Origin: Oceanicoccus sp. KOV_DT_Chl
GTDB lineage: Bacteria; Pseudomonadota; Gammaproteobacteria; Pseudomonadales; Dasaniaceae
Length of the DNA: 64,000 bases
NCBI RefSeq assembly: GCF_900120175.1
Contig: NZ_FQLF01000001.1
Location: 186,001-250,000 of the forward strand
Direction of reading: 5' to 3'
In this document: one piece after another, positions 6,911 through 14,414 of the stretch
Layout of the letters: every line of letters starts with the position of its first letter
How positions within the stretch are numbered: position 1 is the first letter of the stretch
Position numbers and translations under genes: made by a program
Notes under the pieces: model-generated
What the model was told of the DNA's origin: nothing
Database searches by the model: none
Seen by the model: the letters and a program-made list of their open reading frames with translations, nothing else

Positions 6911-8545
6911 TTAAAAGTCGATCACATTATTTTTAATTTTGTAGTGCTGCCACAATTTTAGTAGCTCTTTGCGTTTTTCAATATGGATGAGAGATAGGTC
7001 AGTCATTTCTGCTGGATCTTTTTCCAGATTAAACAGTTGCCAGGCTCCCGAGCCTAATGGTGGTGATAGAAGGACAATTTTCCACGGCCATGAAGTGTAG
7101 GCTTTATTACCAAATATTTCTGTCCCGAACTGATTGGCACCTTTATAGGCTTTAGATGTTTTGCCCGAAAGTAATGGAAGTAACGTTTTTCCCTGCAGTG
7201 GTAGAGTGGCTCGCCTGTTTATTTGGTGGATGGGAGAGATGCCAGCAAGATCAAGTAAGGTCGGCATGATATCGCGAATACTGGTAAATTCCGCACTTAT
7301 ATTCCCTGCATTTATCATCTTGCCAGGAAGTTTTACCACCAATGGGGAGAGTGTACCGCCTTCAGTGACAATGCTTTTAAATAGTCTATGTGGTGTCATG
7401 CTGGCCTGGGCCCAACCGGCACCCATATCAACATAAGAATTGGTTAGCCCGCTGTTTTCAAGGCTATTATCGAAGCTCGCTAAATAATCACCTGTTTGAT
7501 TAGGGTATGTGGTATTGGGTGCGCCGTTCGCGCCATTATCAGACATAAAGATAATGATGGTATTGTCATACTGATTACTTTGGCGTAAATAACTAAGTAC
7601 TCGACCAATTTGCTCATCCATATAGTCAATCATGGCGGCATATATTTCCATTCTTCTTGCATAGGTTTTTTGTTGTTCTGGAGGAAGCGAGTGCCATGCA
7701 GGTACAAAGTGCAATCTGGGAAAAGGCTTGATGCCAGGTTCGACCATACCTATTCGCTTTAGACTATTAAGGCGTTCTCGTCTAAGGGCGTCCCAGCCCT
7801 CGTTGTAAGTTCCTTTGTATTTGTCGATATACGCCTTAGGTGCGTGCAAAGGATTATGGGGGGCCATGTAAGACAGGTAGGCGAAAAACGGTTTGCCGTC
7901 ACCTTCGGATTCTTTTAGTTTGCCCAGCATAAAGTCGGTGAAATTGCGAGTAGAATAAAAATCTTTGGGTAGTTTAGGCACTGTGCGCCCATTTTCGGTG
8001 TAGCGCATTTTCATCGAAGGTGAGAGCGGCTTTTGGTCGTACCAGTGACTACCTCCATTCGTCAATAGCGAGAAGCTCTGCTCAAAACCTCGAGAGAAGG
8101 GGTCAGTTTTTTGGGTTTCACCCAAATGCCATTTTCCTGCGATATAGGTGTGATATCCGTTCTTATGTAGTAACTCTGGAAGAGTGGCGACTTTAAAATT
8201 CAGTTGGCCTATATAGCCTGGATGTCCTTTCATGGCAGGAGTAATAAGCTCGCTAAGAGTCCCCATTCCCGCTAGGTGATTATCGACACCCGACATCAAT
8301 ACGGCGCGCGTTAGCGAGCAGGTTGGCTGAGTATGGAAGTTGCTAAGGCGCAGCCCTTCCGAGGCTAGCTGATCAATAGTTGGCGTTGAAATTTCGCCGC
8401 CAAAGGCACCCAGATCAGAGAATCCAAGATCGTCGGCGACAATAAGTAGTATGTTCGGCTGGGCTTGAGAAAACACATAAGTACATGCAAGCAGCTGAAT
8501 TATGAGTGTTGTCAGATACGTATAGAGTCTATTTCTTAAATACAT
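6911..8545 (-). CDS. Exported arylsulfatase-type sulfatase (S1 family)
   Basis: A 544-residue sulfatase with an N-terminal signal peptide (about 27 residues, ending near FSQAQP). Metal-ligand residues Asp38-Asp39 (ADDLGFSDLG), GKWHLGE and FMSDNGANG are typical of type I arylsulfatases such as the Pseudomonas AtsA group. The segment DNHLAGMGTLSELITP also matches that subgroup. The formylglycine motif reads C76-S-L-T-R, with Leu where Pro (or Ala) is normal; the codon is CTA, one base from CCA. Whether the Cys is still converted is uncertain. Hydrolysis of sulfate esters from algal polysaccharide, aryl or steroid sulfates in the periplasm is the family role. Substrate is unknown. Confidence 0.9.
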   Translation of the reverse strand: MYLRNRLYTYLTTLIIQLLACTYVFSQAQPNILLIVADDLGFSDLGAFGGEISTPTIDQLASEGLRLSNFHTQPTCSLTRAVLMSGVDNHLAGMGTLSELITPAMKGHPGYIGQLNFKVATLPELLHKNGYHTYIAGKWHLGETQKTDPFSRGFEQSFSLLTNGGSHWYDQKPLSPSMKMRYTENGRTVPKLPKDFYSTRNFTDFMLGKLKESEGDGKPFFAYLSYMAPHNPLHAPKAYIDKYKGTYNEGWDALRRERLNSLKRIGMVEPGIKPFPRLHFVPAWHSLPPEQQKTYARRMEIYAAMIDYMDEQIGRVLSYLRQSNQYDNTIIIFMSDNGANGAPNTTYPNQTGDYLASFDNSLENSGLTNSYVDMGAGWAQASMTPHRLFKSIVTEGGTLSPLVVKLPGKMINAGNISAEFTSIRDIMPTLLDLAGISPIHQINRRATLPLQGKTLLPLLSGKTSKAYKGANQFGTEIFGNKAYTSWPWKIVLLSPPLGSGAWQLFNLEKDPAEMTDLSLIHIEKRKELLKLWQHYKIKNNVIDF

Positions 8546-9218
8546 GTTGCCACCCCGTTGTTGCGCTTTTGCCCTTATCCGTAGTTAGCAAATTTTCGCA
8601 ATTTAGTGCTTGGCAAGTGCGCCCGGATGCAAAGCTCTAGGTGGTTACATTTATTATATTTTTATTGATCATTGCCAATGTGAATTATAAAGGATAAATA
8701 TACGCGTAGTTAGGTTTGTTTGGGTTAACTGTGTTTCTATGCAGGCCATATTAGTGCATGGTAAGTGCGCTCGGATGCGAATCTCTAGTTGGAAAAGTTC
8801 ATCATATTTTTATAGGGCTTTACCAAAGCGAACTATGGGAGGGTAAGTGCATATTTAATCAAGCCTGCTTGGGATAACTGTGTTTCCATTTGGGTCATAA
8901 ATAAGTGTTTTTATCATCTGTTTTTTTCAAAAGGTTAGTTTGTAATTATGCTATAGAAATTATCATTTCGTTAAATGATATATGCCTATCTGGTAACTAA
9001 ATAATAGTAATAAATACACGAAACATTTTTAAACTAAAAATAGATTTTTTATGTCATTTTGTGTCGAGTATCTTGACAGGAAAAATTCTGTTTGCACTAA
9101 ATTTAAAACGTTTTTAACCTCTTCTTGAAAATTTACTGAATTATTGAAAATCGTTTATTGACCTCTGGCCGGCTTAGGGAATAAGTTGCTCCCCGTCAGG
9201 TCGATATTTGGTCTGAAG
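8546..9218. other. Intergenic, AT-rich, contains a tandem repeat
   Basis: Upstream of the sulfatase (minus) and of the riboswitch-led gene (plus). It holds the two-copy repeat listed separately (8603-8899) and then A/T-rich DNA to about 9170 that should contain the promoter of the riboswitch transcript. No ORF of coding character was found. Confidence 0.6.
8603..8899. repeat. Imperfect tandem direct repeat, two copies of about 148 bp
   Basis: Copy 1 spans about 8603-8750 and copy 2 about 8751-8899. Shared blocks include TTAGTGC, AAGTGCGC-CGGATGC, CTCTAG, ATATTTTTAT, TTGGGWTAACTGTGTTTC and the ending TCATA/CCATA. Spacing between matched blocks is constant at 148-149 bp, and divergence is roughly a quarter of positions. 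The copies are non-coding. They could be duplicated promoter or operator DNA for the divergent sulfatase. Confidence 0.65.
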
Positions 9219-9322
9219 TTTTAGGAAGTAGGAAAAAGCTGCACTCGACGTGAGTCGAGGTCGGAAAGCTAAGGGTCTTCGTAAAGTCGGTAACATTAGA
9301 AGATAGCCTGGCTGCCCTAAAA
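9219..9322 (+). promoter_or_regulatory. Cyclic-di-GMP-I (GEMM-like) riboswitch
   Basis: The leader of the VPVPA-tailed gene folds like the GEMM/c-di-GMP-I class. The closing stem P1 is TTTTAGG (9219-9225) with CCTAAAA (9316-9322). A hairpin CTCGAC (9244-9249), GNRA loop GTGA (9250-9253), GTCGAG (9254-9259) corresponds to the tetraloop stem. It is followed by CGGAAAGCT, in the position of the class motif CGCAAAGCC. A third stem GTCTTC (9275-9280)/GAAGAT (9299-9304) leads into AGCCTGGCTGCC, matching the class 3' end (AGCCGGGTTGCC type). The A-rich AGGAAAAAGC (9230-9239) stands for AGGGCAAACC. The start codon lies 29 bp beyond. Several conserved bases differ from consensus, so ligand preference (c-di-GMP, cGAMP or degenerate) is open. 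Confidence 0.75.
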
Positions 9323-9351
9323 ATAAATTATAAAATTATAGGTGACCTCTC

Positions 9352-10095
9352 ATGAGAAAAATAAATTTAATTAGCGCGGCAATTATTTCTACATTTGTTG
9401 CAAGCGCTGCAAGCGCCGCTACTTACACAATCAGTTCAGATGTGACTAATAGCTCTGTTATGCTTGGCACAACTGACAACATCCCCGGTGTTAATCCAAC
9501 CAATCTAACTATTTCCGGTGAGCTTGATATCGATGTTTCTGGCGGTACTTATATTATTAACAGTGGTAGTGTTACAGTCGATGGTACGATTGGTTTTTTT
9601 GCTGGTGCCCCGATAGAGTTATTATTTAACGGCGTGACGTCTGCCTATAATAACGGCGTTTTGTTCGATGGAAGTGGTGCTGGTGGTATTGCTTTTGAAG
9701 TTAATGGTAATGGTGTTAATAATATCGATCTTACCCAAAGTGCAGTTAGTGGCGTAATCGGCGACGCCAACCATCTTGGTTTGGCGCAGTATGGTTTAAA
9801 CTTGGGTGGCGGTACGGTTAATGGTGATGGCACTATTTCACTTGGATTGTGTGGGGCCCCTGATGCCGTAGGATTTGCTTTGTCTCCTACTTGCCTTGGA
9901 GATAGTAATACTGCAGGTGTATTCGGCGACAATACATTAGGTGCTACCGTGCTGGGCTCGTCAGCCAGTATTTATTTAGCCGGTAATATCACCCTAACGG
10001 AAGTAGCTGCTGTTCCAGTTCCTGCAGCTGCTTGGCTTTTTGGTTCGGCTTTATTGGGTCTGTCAACTGTAGGTCGTCGTCGCGTTAAGAAGTGA
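9352..10095 (+). CDS. Secreted protein with VPVPA/PEP-CTERM-type sorting tail
   Basis: A 247-residue exported protein with a cleavable signal peptide (about residues 1-23, ending ASAASAA). A low-complexity Gly/Asn/Ser/Thr-rich body follows, with the look of beta-strand extracellular proteins. The C-terminus is tripartite: VPVPAAAWLFGSALLGL, i.e. motif plus hydrophobic helix, and then an Arg/Lys tail. This is the VPxPA variant of PEP-CTERM sorting signals recognised by exosortases, which couple cleavage and anchoring to exopolysaccharide export. No exosortase lies in the window. It is preceded by a c-di-GMP-type riboswitch and closed by a strong terminator, so it is regulated alone. A biofilm or matrix role is inferred. 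Confidence 0.85.
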   Translation: MRKINLISAAIISTFVASAASAATYTISSDVTNSSVMLGTTDNIPGVNPTNLTISGELDIDVSGGTYIINSGSVTVDGTIGFFAGAPIELLFNGVTSAYNNGVLFDGSGAGGIAFEVNGNGVNNIDLTQSAVSGVIGDANHLGLAQYGLNLGGGTVNGDGTISLGLCGAPDAVGFALSPTCLGDSNTAGVFGDNTLGATVLGSSASIYLAGNITLTEVAAVPVPAAAWLFGSALLGLSTVGRRRVKK

Positions 10096-10110
10096 TTCAT
10101 TAGTTGTTAA

Positions 10111-10140
10111 AAAATAAGCGGGCGTTAGCCCGCTTATTTT
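10111..10140 (+). terminator. Intrinsic terminator after the VPVPA gene
   Basis: A 13-bp perfect stem, AAAATAAGCGGGC (10111-10123) with GCCCGCTTATTTT (10128-10140), has a GTTA loop and ends in a run of T. It lies 15 bp after the stop and separates this gene from the lipoprotein gene. Confidence 0.93.
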
Positions 10141-10195
10141 TTGTCTGTTTTAAGCTGCTATATGTTTGATAAAAAAAATAATTAGAGGTTTGGTA

Positions 10196-11803
10196 ATGAT
10201 GTTTTTTCGTAGTCTATTTATTTTGTGGTGTATTTTACAGCTAGCTGCTTGTGGTGGCAGTAGTGACGCGAATACAACGCCAAGCAGCGAAACCGAGTTG
10301 CAGGGAATGGCTGTCAAAGGGCCAAGAGTTAACGCAGAGGTACGTGTTTATCAAATTGATTTTGGCGGTGATGAGATAAAAGGACGGCTTATCGGCGAGG
10401 GAGTTACCGACAGTGCCGCTAACTTCTCAGGTGTATTTGTCAAGAGTGAAACACTTAATAAAGGCCCGATATTAATCGAGGTTTCGGGCGGGGCTGAGTT
10501 GAACGGAAGTGTTCCGGTGATTGATACCCTGTCGGCAATAATCAGCCCATCCGCATTACTTCGAGGTGATAGAGTCTACCCTACACCTTTGACCACAATG
10601 GTGGTACATAGGACTTTGCTCGACGCAGCAAAACTAGAGCAAATAGACAGCCAACAGTTTGGCGAACTTAAAAAAGCAGCAGTAAACGCCGTTATTACAT
10701 CATTAGGCCTTGGTATTCTTGATGATATTGGATCAACAGCGTTGGAGAGAACTTCTCCAGTAAGTCTTGATGGCAGTGGGTCAGATGCAAGCCTGGCGTA
10801 TCGAACTGTCATCGAAGTGTTTAGCGCGTTGGTAGTGCAACTTAAAGAGTTTGCTCCCAATACAAGTGGAGATAATCTTTTATTGGGTATTGTTAAAGAT
10901 TTGTCTGATAATAATTTAGATGGTGTAAGTGATGGTGAAGGGGTGCCAGAGCTGCTTGAGTTGACAGTTGAACAGATCCTGAGTGTAGCAACACTCAATA
11001 CTGAAGCTTTATTGGCGCTCAATATCCCCGGTACCGAAACACCAATTAGTATGCTCGGTGAGTTTTTGCAGACTGAGGTCGCTGAGTTGGGTGGGGTGCC
11101 TTCACAAACGGCACTGGCTGTCCCTGAATTTTCTGCTCCTGTATTGGTGCTGGACAGTGATGGTGATGGTTATCCAGATATTGTTGATGCGGACCCTGCC
11201 GACCCACAAGTTACGGGTGATGTAGATGGTGATGGGGTTGATAATTTAATAGACCTCTATCCAAATGATGGATCTGAATCTCAAGACTCGGACGGCGATA
11301 CTGTAGGCGACAATGCGGATGATTGTCCGTTTGATAAGGATGTGCAGAGCCTTGAGAGTGGCGATCTTTGCCCATCAGATAGTCTCCCGGTGCAACTCGG
11401 TTGCGGAGATGAAGGTACTATAAGCACTATATTTCTCTGCTCATATGAATACAGTTCGAGCTTGCTAGTGAAAGTGAGTGCTTTTGCTGAGCCAAACTCT
11501 AATGCGGTGATTACCTCTTATCAATGGCGGGTGATAGATGTACCTGACGGCTCTTTGATAACAACGGATAGTTTGGTGATTGGGGACAGTGGTTCTAGTG
11601 TTTCATTTTTAGCGGGGCTGCCTTTAGATATAGGGGCATATATCCTCGAGTTAACAGTTACCACGGAAGAGGGAGTAGAGGTATTAGAGTATGGTGTCGA
11701 TATAAATAAGTCCTTACCTACACCCGGAGAGATGATATTTTTTAGCTTGGGATTACTATCGCTTGTTGGTTTTAGAAAAAACAAAAATAAAGCGAACCGG
11801 TAG
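10196..11803 (+). CDS. Lipoprotein with calcium-binding TSP3-like repeats and C-terminal membrane tail
   Basis: About 535 residues if started at ATG 10196, which has AGAGG at 10184-10188; an in-frame TTG at 10166 is a weaker option. The lipobox LQLAAC followed by GGSS predicts a lipid-anchored protein. A central domain resembles lipoproteins with carboxypeptidase-regulatory-like folds (GMAVKGPRVNAEVRVYQ). Residues about 320-390 hold thrombospondin type 3-like Asp-rich repeats (DSDGDGYPDIVDADPADP, DVDGDGVDNLIDLYPND, DSDGDTVGDNADDCP). A short beta domain follows, and then PTPGEMIFFSLGLLSLVGF plus a Lys/Arg/Asn tail, which looks like a sorting or membrane anchor. Having both an N-terminal lipobox and such a tail is odd. 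Function unknown; surface location expected. Confidence 0.75.
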   Translation: MMFFRSLFILWCILQLAACGGSSDANTTPSSETELQGMAVKGPRVNAEVRVYQIDFGGDEIKGRLIGEGVTDSAANFSGVFVKSETLNKGPILIEVSGGAELNGSVPVIDTLSAIISPSALLRGDRVYPTPLTTMVVHRTLLDAAKLEQIDSQQFGELKKAAVNAVITSLGLGILDDIGSTALERTSPVSLDGSGSDASLAYRTVIEVFSALVVQLKEFAPNTSGDNLLLGIVKDLSDNNLDGVSDGEGVPELLELTVEQILSVATLNTEALLALNIPGTETPISMLGEFLQTEVAELGGVPSQTALAVPEFSAPVLVLDSDGDGYPDIVDADPADPQVTGDVDGDGVDNLIDLYPNDGSESQDSDGDTVGDNADDCPFDKDVQSLESGDLCPSDSLPVQLGCGDEGTISTIFLCSYEYSSSLLVKVSAFAEPNSNAVITSYQWRVIDVPDGSLITTDSLVIGDSGSSVSFLAGLPLDIGAYILELTVTTEEGVEVLEYGVDINKSLPTPGEMIFFSLGLLSLVGFRKNKNKANR

Positions 11804-11927: not shown

Positions 11928-14414
11928 ATGAAATATCGTTTCCCTCCTCTTTTTACATTGATGCTGCTTCCGGTAGTTACTCAAATACCGGTTTTATCGG
12001 CACAGGAATCGTCATTTGCATTGGAAGAAGTTGTTGTTACCGCGCGTAAACGAGAAGAAAGCCTGCAAGAAACTCCGATTGCGGTTTCAGCTTTCAATTC
12101 AGAGATGTTACGGGATGCTCAGATTAACTCTGTTGAAGACCTGACCAGAGAAGTTCCTGGGCTTACCAGACCTGGCGGTCGAAAGTCAGCGGACTTATCA
12201 ATCAGGGGTGTGGGCACTCGTAAGAATGATGTTCGTGTCGAGCCGGGTGTCGGTGTCTATATTGATTCTATCTATATCCCTCGAAACGATACCCAATTAG
12301 TCGATGTTATTAGTATGGAGTCAATTCAAGTTCTGCGTGGCCCGCAAGGCACGTTATTTGGAAAAAACACGGTTGGCGGTGCGGTGTTACTGACCACTCA
12401 GAAACCCGATGGTGAGTTTAGTGGTTTTGCTCGCGGTGTGGTGGGTAATTTTGATCGGCAAGATGCACGCTTGGCGGTGGATGGACCATTAATAGAGGAC
12501 ACACTATATGGCGGTGTTATTTTAGATTCGGCTAATTCGGGAGGCTATCGTGAGGATGCTTTTACAGGCAGAGAGTATGGCGATATTGATCGACAATCAA
12601 TTTTGGCGCAGCTGCGATATGAGTCAGGTGGAAGTATGGTGGCAGACTTACTGATGTTCTGGAATAAGCAGCGAGAGAATGCAGCACCGGTTAATTGCTT
12701 TTTGGTGTCAGCCGAGGGAGACCTTGCTTCAAGGACAACAAAAGCCCCCACACTGGGAGACTATGCTGATAACGGAATAACCCAGCAGGATTTTCTCGCC
12801 GCGGGGGCGGATGTTAGCGGCTTGGCTGCTGGCGATGCGCCAAGCTTCGCAGATGCTTGTAAGCTCAGCGAAAACTTAAGTGATGATAAAAAAGTACTTC
12901 AGGATATCGATGAAAATGTTTGGGAGGTTGATAACTTTCTTACCGGGCTGACAGTCAGTTGGGATTTAGGTGATATAACCGTTAAAAGTATCACCGGCTA
13001 CCTTTACCAAGACAATATTATTCAGTCTAGTGACTCGGATGCTTCTAACATTTTCTCGATTAGAAATTTCTCTGTTGCTCAAGCAGCGTTTGAAGCAAGT
13101 GGTATTGATGCCGATAAGCAGGTGCGTGAGTTTGCTTCGCAAGAATTCCAGTTCCTGGGTTCTGCTTTTAATGGCTCAATGGACTACGTGGTAGGTATGT
13201 TCTACTCCAGCGAAGTCTTGGATAATCTGCCTGTTGGGATTGCTCTCGGGCCCAATGGCTGGCTCGGTCAGGAGAATTCTCAAGGGGTAGCGACGCTCGA
13301 CTCAGCTTTTGCTGGTCTCAACGGGATGTCGATGATCAAGCTTGACAATGATACAGCTGCCGCCTTTGGTCAGGTGGTTTATAACTTTGATGAACAGTGG
13401 CAAGTCACCATAGGGATGCGCTATACAGCGGAAACTAAAAAGGCTACTCAAGTAAATTACAACTCAGTATCTGAGTCCAGAGGCACTATCGGTCGGGACG
13501 AGTTTAATGCCTTGCCTTTTCCAACGTTGGCATTTTCTGTAGCAGCGCCCTTTACCGAAGCTGAGGAGGACTGGGAGGTATTTTCTCCTGCGTTGACGCT
13601 GACGATGTTTACACCGGGTGAGTGGCAGAATGACTACTTCGATGGTGGTATGTTTTATGGCAGTGTGAGTGAGGGGTTTAAGGCAGGCGGCTTTTCGCCT
13701 TTTGATAACCAGTTAGTAGCCTTTGAACCAGAGAAGTTAATTACCTATGAGTTGGGGTATAAATTGGCATTCTTGAACAATAGGGTGCGCGTCAATGGTG
13801 CGGTTTATCAATCAGACTACGATGATATCCAGCTGTCGATTGTTCGCTCTGTTGGTCCCCTTAATGTTCAGCCATTAACTTCCAATGCCGGTAAAGCGTC
13901 TATCGAAGGCGCTGAATTAGAAGTTACCTACCTGCCATTTGAAAGTATGTTGACAGGGGTGTCAGCCGCTTATACTAATGCAAAATACGATGAGTTTATT
14001 GATGAGCCCAAAGATCCTGTTACTGGCGAAGGGATTCTCTATGATCGTTCTAATGAAGAGTTTCCGTTCTTACCGCAGAAAACGCTAACAGCGTACATGC
14101 AATATGAATGGGCCAGCGAATTTGGCTCTGTAACACCTAGGCTCAGTGGTAGCTATATGGATGGGGTATTTATAGGTGCCAGCGCATTCGATGCATTAGC
14201 CCCGTCTTCGTATATACCTGGGTACACACTTTGGACGTTCCGTTTAGCGGTTCGCCCTTTACAGGTAGATGGTTTTGAAATTGCTGCTTTTGTTAATAAC
14301 TTGACTGATAAGGAATATATCGCATCTGGTACGCCGCAAGGCAATATTGGCTCGGTCACTTATAATTACGGTAAGGAACGTACCTTTGGCTTAGAGGTTT
14401 TTTACGAGTGGTAG
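11928..14414 (+). CDS. TonB-dependent outer-membrane receptor
   Basis: An 828-residue receptor with a signal peptide ending near LSAQ. A TonB-box/plug start follows (EEVVVTARKREESLQETPIA, residues about 30-49), with plug signatures IRGVGTRKNDVR and VLRGPQGTLFGKNTVGGA, and a long beta-barrel that ends in aromatic residues (LEVFYEW), as barrel proteins do. It is the type common in marine proteobacteria for uptake of unknown organic ligands (the IAVSAF group), rather than a clear siderophore receptor. The gene follows the lipoprotein on the same strand after 124 bp. RBS AGGAATAC lies just before ATG 11928. Ligand unknown. Confidence 0.92.
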   Translation: MKYRFPPLFTLMLLPVVTQIPVLSAQESSFALEEVVVTARKREESLQETPIAVSAFNSEMLRDAQINSVEDLTREVPGLTRPGGRKSADLSIRGVGTRKNDVRVEPGVGVYIDSIYIPRNDTQLVDVISMESIQVLRGPQGTLFGKNTVGGAVLLTTQKPDGEFSGFARGVVGNFDRQDARLAVDGPLIEDTLYGGVILDSANSGGYREDAFTGREYGDIDRQSILAQLRYESGGSMVADLLMFWNKQRENAAPVNCFLVSAEGDLASRTTKAPTLGDYADNGITQQDFLAAGADVSGLAAGDAPSFADACKLSENLSDDKKVLQDIDENVWEVDNFLTGLTVSWDLGDITVKSITGYLYQDNIIQSSDSDASNIFSIRNFSVAQAAFEASGIDADKQVREFASQEFQFLGSAFNGSMDYVVGMFYSSEVLDNLPVGIALGPNGWLGQENSQGVATLDSAFAGLNGMSMIKLDNDTAAAFGQVVYNFDEQWQVTIGMRYTAETKKATQVNYNSVSESRGTIGRDEFNALPFPTLAFSVAAPFTEAEEDWEVFSPALTLTMFTPGEWQNDYFDGGMFYGSVSEGFKAGGFSPFDNQLVAFEPEKLITYELGYKLAFLNNRVRVNGAVYQSDYDDIQLSIVRSVGPLNVQPLTSNAGKASIEGAELEVTYLPFESMLTGVSAAYTNAKYDEFIDEPKDPVTGEGILYDRSNEEFPFLPQKTLTAYMQYEWASEFGSVTPRLSGSYMDGVFIGASAFDALAPSSYIPGYTLWTFRLAVRPLQVDGFEIAAFVNNLTDKEYIASGTPQGNIGSVTYNYGKERTFGLEVFYEW

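Follow-up and report, generated by a model that had tools for sequence, protein, structure and literature searches.

A c-di-GMP-I riboswitch aptamer with a reversed P1b pair upstream of an exosortase-substrate gene, one of six such riboswitch-gene pairs in Oceanicoccus sp. KOV_DT_Chl

Introduction

Vibrio cholerae has the c-di-GMP-I (GEMM, RF01051) riboswitches Vc1 and Vc2, and the ligand in Vc2 is contacted by G20, A47 and C92 (PMC4744006). G21 and C46 have been counted among the ligand-binding or energy-contributing residues (PMC7288161, PMC9049102), and the change G20A has been linked to cGAMP (PMC6274999). The pairing of a c-di-GMP riboswitch with a PEP-CTERM gene is already published for Methylophaga nitratireducenticrescens GP59, as a 2025 paper lists 7 c-di-GMP riboswitches there and remarks that 4 have a PEP-CTERM or VPLPA-CTERM gene beside them (PMC12530212). 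In Bacillus thuringiensis, the sorted surface protein CbpA is turned on by c-di-GMP through a c-di-GMP-I riboswitch (PMC7423583). In the literature searched, outside which most subscription papers lay, no account of the riboswitch/PEP-CTERM link broader than Methylophaga was seen, and the reversal of the pair 21-46 described below was not mentioned, which is weak evidence of novelty.

Here, we analyzed a stretch of 64,000 nucleotides of contig NZ_FQLF01000001.1 (hereafter the window). Its aptamer shares with Vc1 and Vc2 the RF01051 match, G20, A47 and C92, a GNRA-capped P2, P3 and a short P1, but differs in a P1b reversed to C21-G46, a wobble at 22-45, a deviating internal loop and an exosortase-substrate target. 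Whereas the GP59 riboswitches are clustered in an exopolysaccharide region, the six of the present genome are scattered (PMC12530212; the comparison covers position and targets). CbpA is a Gram-positive LPXTG/sortase protein under transcriptional control, in contrast to the exosortase type of the window (PMC7423583).

Results

The aptamer belongs to the c-di-GMP-I class

The features of the locus are as follows.

9219..9225, + strand, UUUUAGG, alternative pairing partner for 9316-9322 (read from sequence)
9229..9320, + strand, c-di-GMP-I (GEMM) riboswitch aptamer (RF03167 60.6 bits, RF01051 52.6 bits)
9244..9259, + strand, P2 hairpin with GUGA (GNRA) tetraloop (sequence and covariance-model alignment)
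9316..9322, + strand, CCUAAAA, P1 3' strand (read from sequence)
9340..9345, + strand, AGGTGA, ribosome-binding site, 6 nt 5' of ATG
9352..10095, + strand, exported VPLPA-CTERM protein of 247 aa, signal-like N-terminus, tail residues 221-245 (TIGR03370)
10108..10143, + strand, terminator-like hairpin of 16 pairs

A preliminary description of this DNA had placed the leader in the GEMM/c-di-GMP-I class, and had named the lack of a covariance-model hit and the lack of a conserved fold as observations that would count against it. The cmscan of the whole window gave RF03167 (c-di-GMP-I-GGC) at 9229-9320 as the sole gathering-level match (gathering score 59, E 7.8e-12), one overlapping same-clan match of lower score being omitted from the table with RF03167 as clan winner, and the RF01051 search of the genome scored the same aptamer well above its gathering score of 35 (E 3.6e-9). 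The GNRA-capped stem was found as described, with strands CTCGAC (9244-9249) and GTCGAG (9254-9259) around the loop GTGA (9250-9253), as were the core element CGGAAAGCT at 9262-9270 and the 3' element AGCCTGGCTGCC at 9305-9316; P2, P3 and the P1b helix are all present. These elements are far beyond chance, and the riboswitch is real and a member of the known c-di-GMP-I class, while ligand binding itself is predicted from its sequence.

The closing stem needs a correction. TTTTAGG at 9219-9225 can pair with CCTAAAA at 9316-9322 as had been proposed, but the covariance model places its closing pairs (9231-9232 with 9316-9317, plus 9229 with 9320) nearer the core, and UAGG 9229-9232 is pairable by eye with CCUA 9316-9319. 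TTTTAGG is therefore an alternative partner for the same 3' strand.

The fold is conserved among 21 reversed, PEP-linked aptamers (33 of the 35 introduced below were candidates, 22 were chosen, and one misaligned sequence was removed). Pairing was found in 88.2% of cells vs. 76.6 in shuffles, 12 pairs changed on both sides vs. 8.6 (reached by 3 of 500 shuffles), and the covariation score was 0.426 vs. 0.209 in shuffles and at most 0.144 when the alignment was slid; additional pair types were not unusually many (33 vs. 30.2, 63 of 500 shuffles). By helix, pairing was 100% in P1b, 98.4% in P2 and 91.4% in P3, and 49.2% in P1.

Deviating core bases are confined to P1b and its internal loop

In the covariance-model alignment, Vc2 positions 20, 47 and 92 correspond to G9238, A9265 and C9315, the numbering being our own register from the window cmscan alignment. 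Adenine at position 20, the mark of cGAMP-type GEMM aptamers, is absent from the window aptamer. The deviating bases lie in P1b (21-22 with 45-46) and the adjoining internal loop: the pair 21-46 is reversed, with C9239-G9264 in place of G21-C46, the pair 22-45 is a U9240-G9263 wobble, and the loop deviates at 23-24 and 43, so that unusual bases fall at 22-24, 43 and 45 overall.

RF03167 gives the best Rfam score of the window, yet its consensus has G at model position 37 (equal to 47), where the window has A. The name "GGC" presumably refers to positions 20, 47 and 92. Among the 390 genomes of the order survey, the RF03167 cut-off was passed in 11, by three reversed and eight other aptamers, and RF01051 was reported for all five reversed aptamers compared (L002, L005, L007, L053, L218) as well as for the canonical L004. 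A riboswitch survey also noted that these models tend toward recognising the same RNAs (PMC9943018). As RF03167 passes reversed and canonical aptamers alike, it is a poor guide to ligand subtype, and we rejected the reading of a ligand variant from the Rfam label.

At another locus (G185:C1:1739317-1763549; L099, L100), five GEMM aptamers lie within about 24 kb, with A at position 20 in three and G in two, and cGAMP-like and c-di-GMP-like types may occur there side by side.

The window gene encodes an exosortase-type surface protein

The product of 9352-10095 carries the sorting tail VPVPAAAWLFGSALLGLSTVGRRRVKK, which TIGR03370 (VPLPA-CTERM) recognises at 26.9 bits against a cut-off of 25.35, bearing out the exported, exosortase-tailed protein proposed earlier; the strong terminator predicted after the gene is the hairpin at 10108-10143. 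With its tail removed, the protein had no NCBIfam match at E 0.01, and a search of 36 other genomes gave no orthologs at E 0.001; a riboswitch-linked protein of genome G507 shares 34% identity with it over 163 aa, tail included. Assignment to the flocculation protein PepA (NF033554) was rejected, as the whole protein scored 23.3 bits against a cut-off of 80 and the similarity is confined to the tail.

The + strand showed no promoter-like site ahead of the leader. On the opposite strand of this upstream region, 6911-8545 encodes a sulfatase-family protein (PF00884, 205 bits), and GACCT and AGGTC within 9160-9203 form a possible hairpin upstream of the aptamer, GACCTCT occurring again at the ribosome site (9344-9350). 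The next two window genes encode a lipoprotein-like protein (10196-11803) and a TonB-dependent receptor (11928-14414). Their relatives (35% over 304 aa, E 3e-49; 27% over 305 aa, E 2e-18) adjoin another riboswitch-linked VPVPA gene of the same genome (L016 6323-11546), and a second VPIPA-tailed protein (L016 5365-6141), which looks closely related to the product of that VPVPA gene, is encoded directly 3' of it.

Six scattered riboswitch-gene pairs in one genome

In the 4.83-Mb genome of 7 contigs, RF01051 has seven matches, six of them above the cut-off, and RF03167 matches the same seven places, one above its own cut-off. Six of the seven aptamers lie ahead of a gene whose exported product carries a VPVPAAAWLFGSA tail:

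VPVPA-linked aptamers: that of the window, C7:56219, C2:2214353, C2:1244536, C2:1879388 and C2:1074057

Downstream of the seventh (C7:134040) lies a gene for a 165-aa protein that lacks this tail. The TIGR03370 cut-off was passed by all six tails in the genome search and by four of the six whole proteins in hmmscan; tails of this type are not rare across the genome, 58 matching at E up to 10 and 27 lying above the cut-off. If up to 2.5% of genes are tailed, an assumed rate rather than a count, six of seven linked genes would arise by chance with a probability near 2e-9. A covariance model built from the 21-aptamer alignment (R1) recovered these six aptamers and nothing else in the genome up to E 1. 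Thus the single controlled protein of the preliminary description holds locally, where one gene is followed by a terminator, but is too narrow at the genome level, the window holding one of six riboswitch-gene pairs.

After 25 N-terminal and 30 C-terminal residues had been cut, the six linked proteins gave no mutual blastp match at E 0.01, which means that duplication of a single gene does not simply account for the set, and this explanation was rejected. Two exosortases are encoded in the genome, among them the VPLPA-CTERM-specific XrtD (TIGR04152, 572.5 bits against a cut-off of 400), whose neighbours include ORFs that we read as exopolysaccharide genes, and GGDEF matches number 47.

The reversed pair is linked, mainly in Gammaproteobacteria, to PEP-CTERM-type genes

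RF01051-positive genomes numbered 50 of 390 in the order survey and 67 of 369 in the class survey, with stricter filters and the loss of some weak matches. We classified 188 rows from 116 genomes, of which three were untypable; rows of our own genome were counted once, and the class rows G399:C124 and G750:C18 were left out. Tails were called by a regular expression rather than a curated model, and we discarded as spurious three short calls that overlapped at canonical aptamers.

Across the two surveys, a PEP-CTERM-type gene lay downstream of 35 of the 53 C21-G46 aptamers vs. 1 of the 132 G21-C46 aptamers (Fisher p 2.9e-23). The link held per genome (reversed 26/36, canonical 1/84, p 4e-17) and per family (12/18 vs. 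1/55, p 1.2e-8), all of these p-values ignoring shared descent save what the family count removes. At loci where the longest ORF was closed, the counts were 35/47 and 1/81. Two of the 35 linked genes (G709, G750) are uncertain, with starts some 350 nt beyond the aptamer.

The other 18 reversed aptamers lack a PEP-type gene. Among them are six of a single genome (G605; L334, L338, L339, L341, L344, L345) that precede no PEP-type tail, and four of family f29 (G157, G274, G292, G344) that lie 5' of a gene whose exported product, of about 340 aa, has no PEP tail. Aptamers in tandem, with starts about 220 bases apart, were seen at G442:C36:975-1279 and G661:C7:719338-719649.

When named bacterial genomes were scanned with a strict pattern for the reversed type, at least 118 matches in at least 116 stretches were obtained. 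Among the matches listed, a PEP-type tail was called downstream in 24 of 118, with at least one call false (L201), at least one real-looking tail missed (L166) and less than 700 nt of downstream sequence at 15 of the 118; Desulfobacterota and Campylobacterota were frequent among 80 of the records listed. This result indicates that the PEP link is mainly gammaproteobacterial, and that the reversal as such occurs widely as a natural variant.

The expression platform

The start codon lies 32 nt 3' of the aptamer, and no terminator-like site was reported between them. CCUA 9316-9319 has three candidate partners, namely UAGG 9229-9232 (P1), the UAGG within 9219-9225 and UAGG 9339-9342 at the ribosome site, and this three-way pairing is the basis for the switch proposed below.

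Thirteen PEP-linked leaders of the same genus were folded (six from G000, three from G005, two from G004, and one each from G002 and G003). In eight of them (four of G000, three of G005, one of G002), the predicted accessibility of the ribosome site was 0.00-0.01 with the P1 3' strand free and 0.02-0.40 once this strand had been removed. This pattern fits translational ON, with moderate support, since the closure was matched in 0 to 48 of 200 shuffles and the rise in 15 to 130 of 200. For the window leader, predicted accessibility changed little (0.53 to 0.67), with 143 of 200 shuffles at least as closed. Closure was likewise not predicted for C2:1244537 (157-nt platform), G003 and G004:20598, and no ribosome site was recognised in the leader G004:19689.

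In L087 and other Marinobacter-type leaders (G270, G375), the ribosome site (CCGGAG) has a complement, CCGG, in the 5' flank, which points to a platform of another kind.

Discussion

Considering the above results, we think it probable that a c-di-GMP-I riboswitch controls one exosortase-sorted surface protein gene in the window, as one of six such pairs in the genome, with c-di-GMP as ligand and translational ON as the mode of control. In the proposed model, binding of c-di-GMP would close P1 and hold CCUA 9316-9319, which in the unbound leader would be free to pair with the ribosome-binding site; at high c-di-GMP, translation would thus be turned on and more exopolysaccharide-associated surface proteins would be made, and the product, once exported, would be sorted by an exosortase, most likely XrtD. 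Translational ON is suggested by the sequestration, on P1 closure, of a CCUA otherwise able to pair with the ribosome site; it is the likeliest mechanism, though argued more weakly than the ligand, and the direction of the switch in the window would follow from the sister leaders, as folding does not show a switch for the window leader itself.

That last observation leaves some room for the same riboswitch and ligand acting in the OFF direction, or through transcription, Rho or mRNA decay instead of translation, and this room is widened by the Marinobacter-type leaders (G375, G270), whose ribosome site is predicted to be closed by upstream sequence, and by Vc1 and Vc2, whose mechanism has itself been described as unclear (PMC4744006). 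Such control nevertheless appears rather unlikely, given that no terminator-like site was found from aptamer to start codon and that the closure pattern of the eight same-genus leaders points to ON. The deviating core bases raise a different question, about the ligand. The preliminary description had suggested from them a variant such as a cGAMP aptamer, and the deviation in P1b and its loop is indeed there; as G21 and C46 stand on the lists of ligand-binding or energy-contributing residues (PMC7288161, PMC9049102), the reversal and the U-G at 22-45 could possibly affect binding, and the top Rfam label is that of a variant family. G20, A47 and C92, however, are retained, the change linked to cGAMP being G20A (PMC6274999), and the label belongs to a model that mixes subtypes and has G rather than A at position 47 in its consensus, so that specificity for cGAMP or another cyclic dinucleotide is very unlikely. 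The same wobble and odd bases at 23-24 and 43, together with the weak expression platform, might instead be taken as decay of an aptamer that has lost switching. Against this stand intact contact residues, GNRA loop, P2 and P3, and a window aptamer with the top RF03167 score among the seven of its genome, and we give decay hardly any weight.

A further proposal is that C21-G46 defines a functional sub-class of c-di-GMP-I riboswitches, distinct in affinity, kinetics or dinucleotide preference, by which Gammaproteobacteria would make exosortase substrates of unrelated structure respond to a common c-di-GMP threshold; in this full form we consider it unlikely. The reversed pair as a mark of exosortase-substrate targets is the part worth following. 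The reversal is a simple, testable mark in the sequence.

PEP-CTERM/exosortase systems are associated with the formation of exopolysaccharide and flocs, but the literature searched says little about direct control of the substrates of these systems. A set of riboswitches placed on proteins that share only a sorting tail would connect the composition of the cell surface directly with c-di-GMP, in parallel with the c-di-GMP riboswitch that acts on a sortase substrate in Bacillus.
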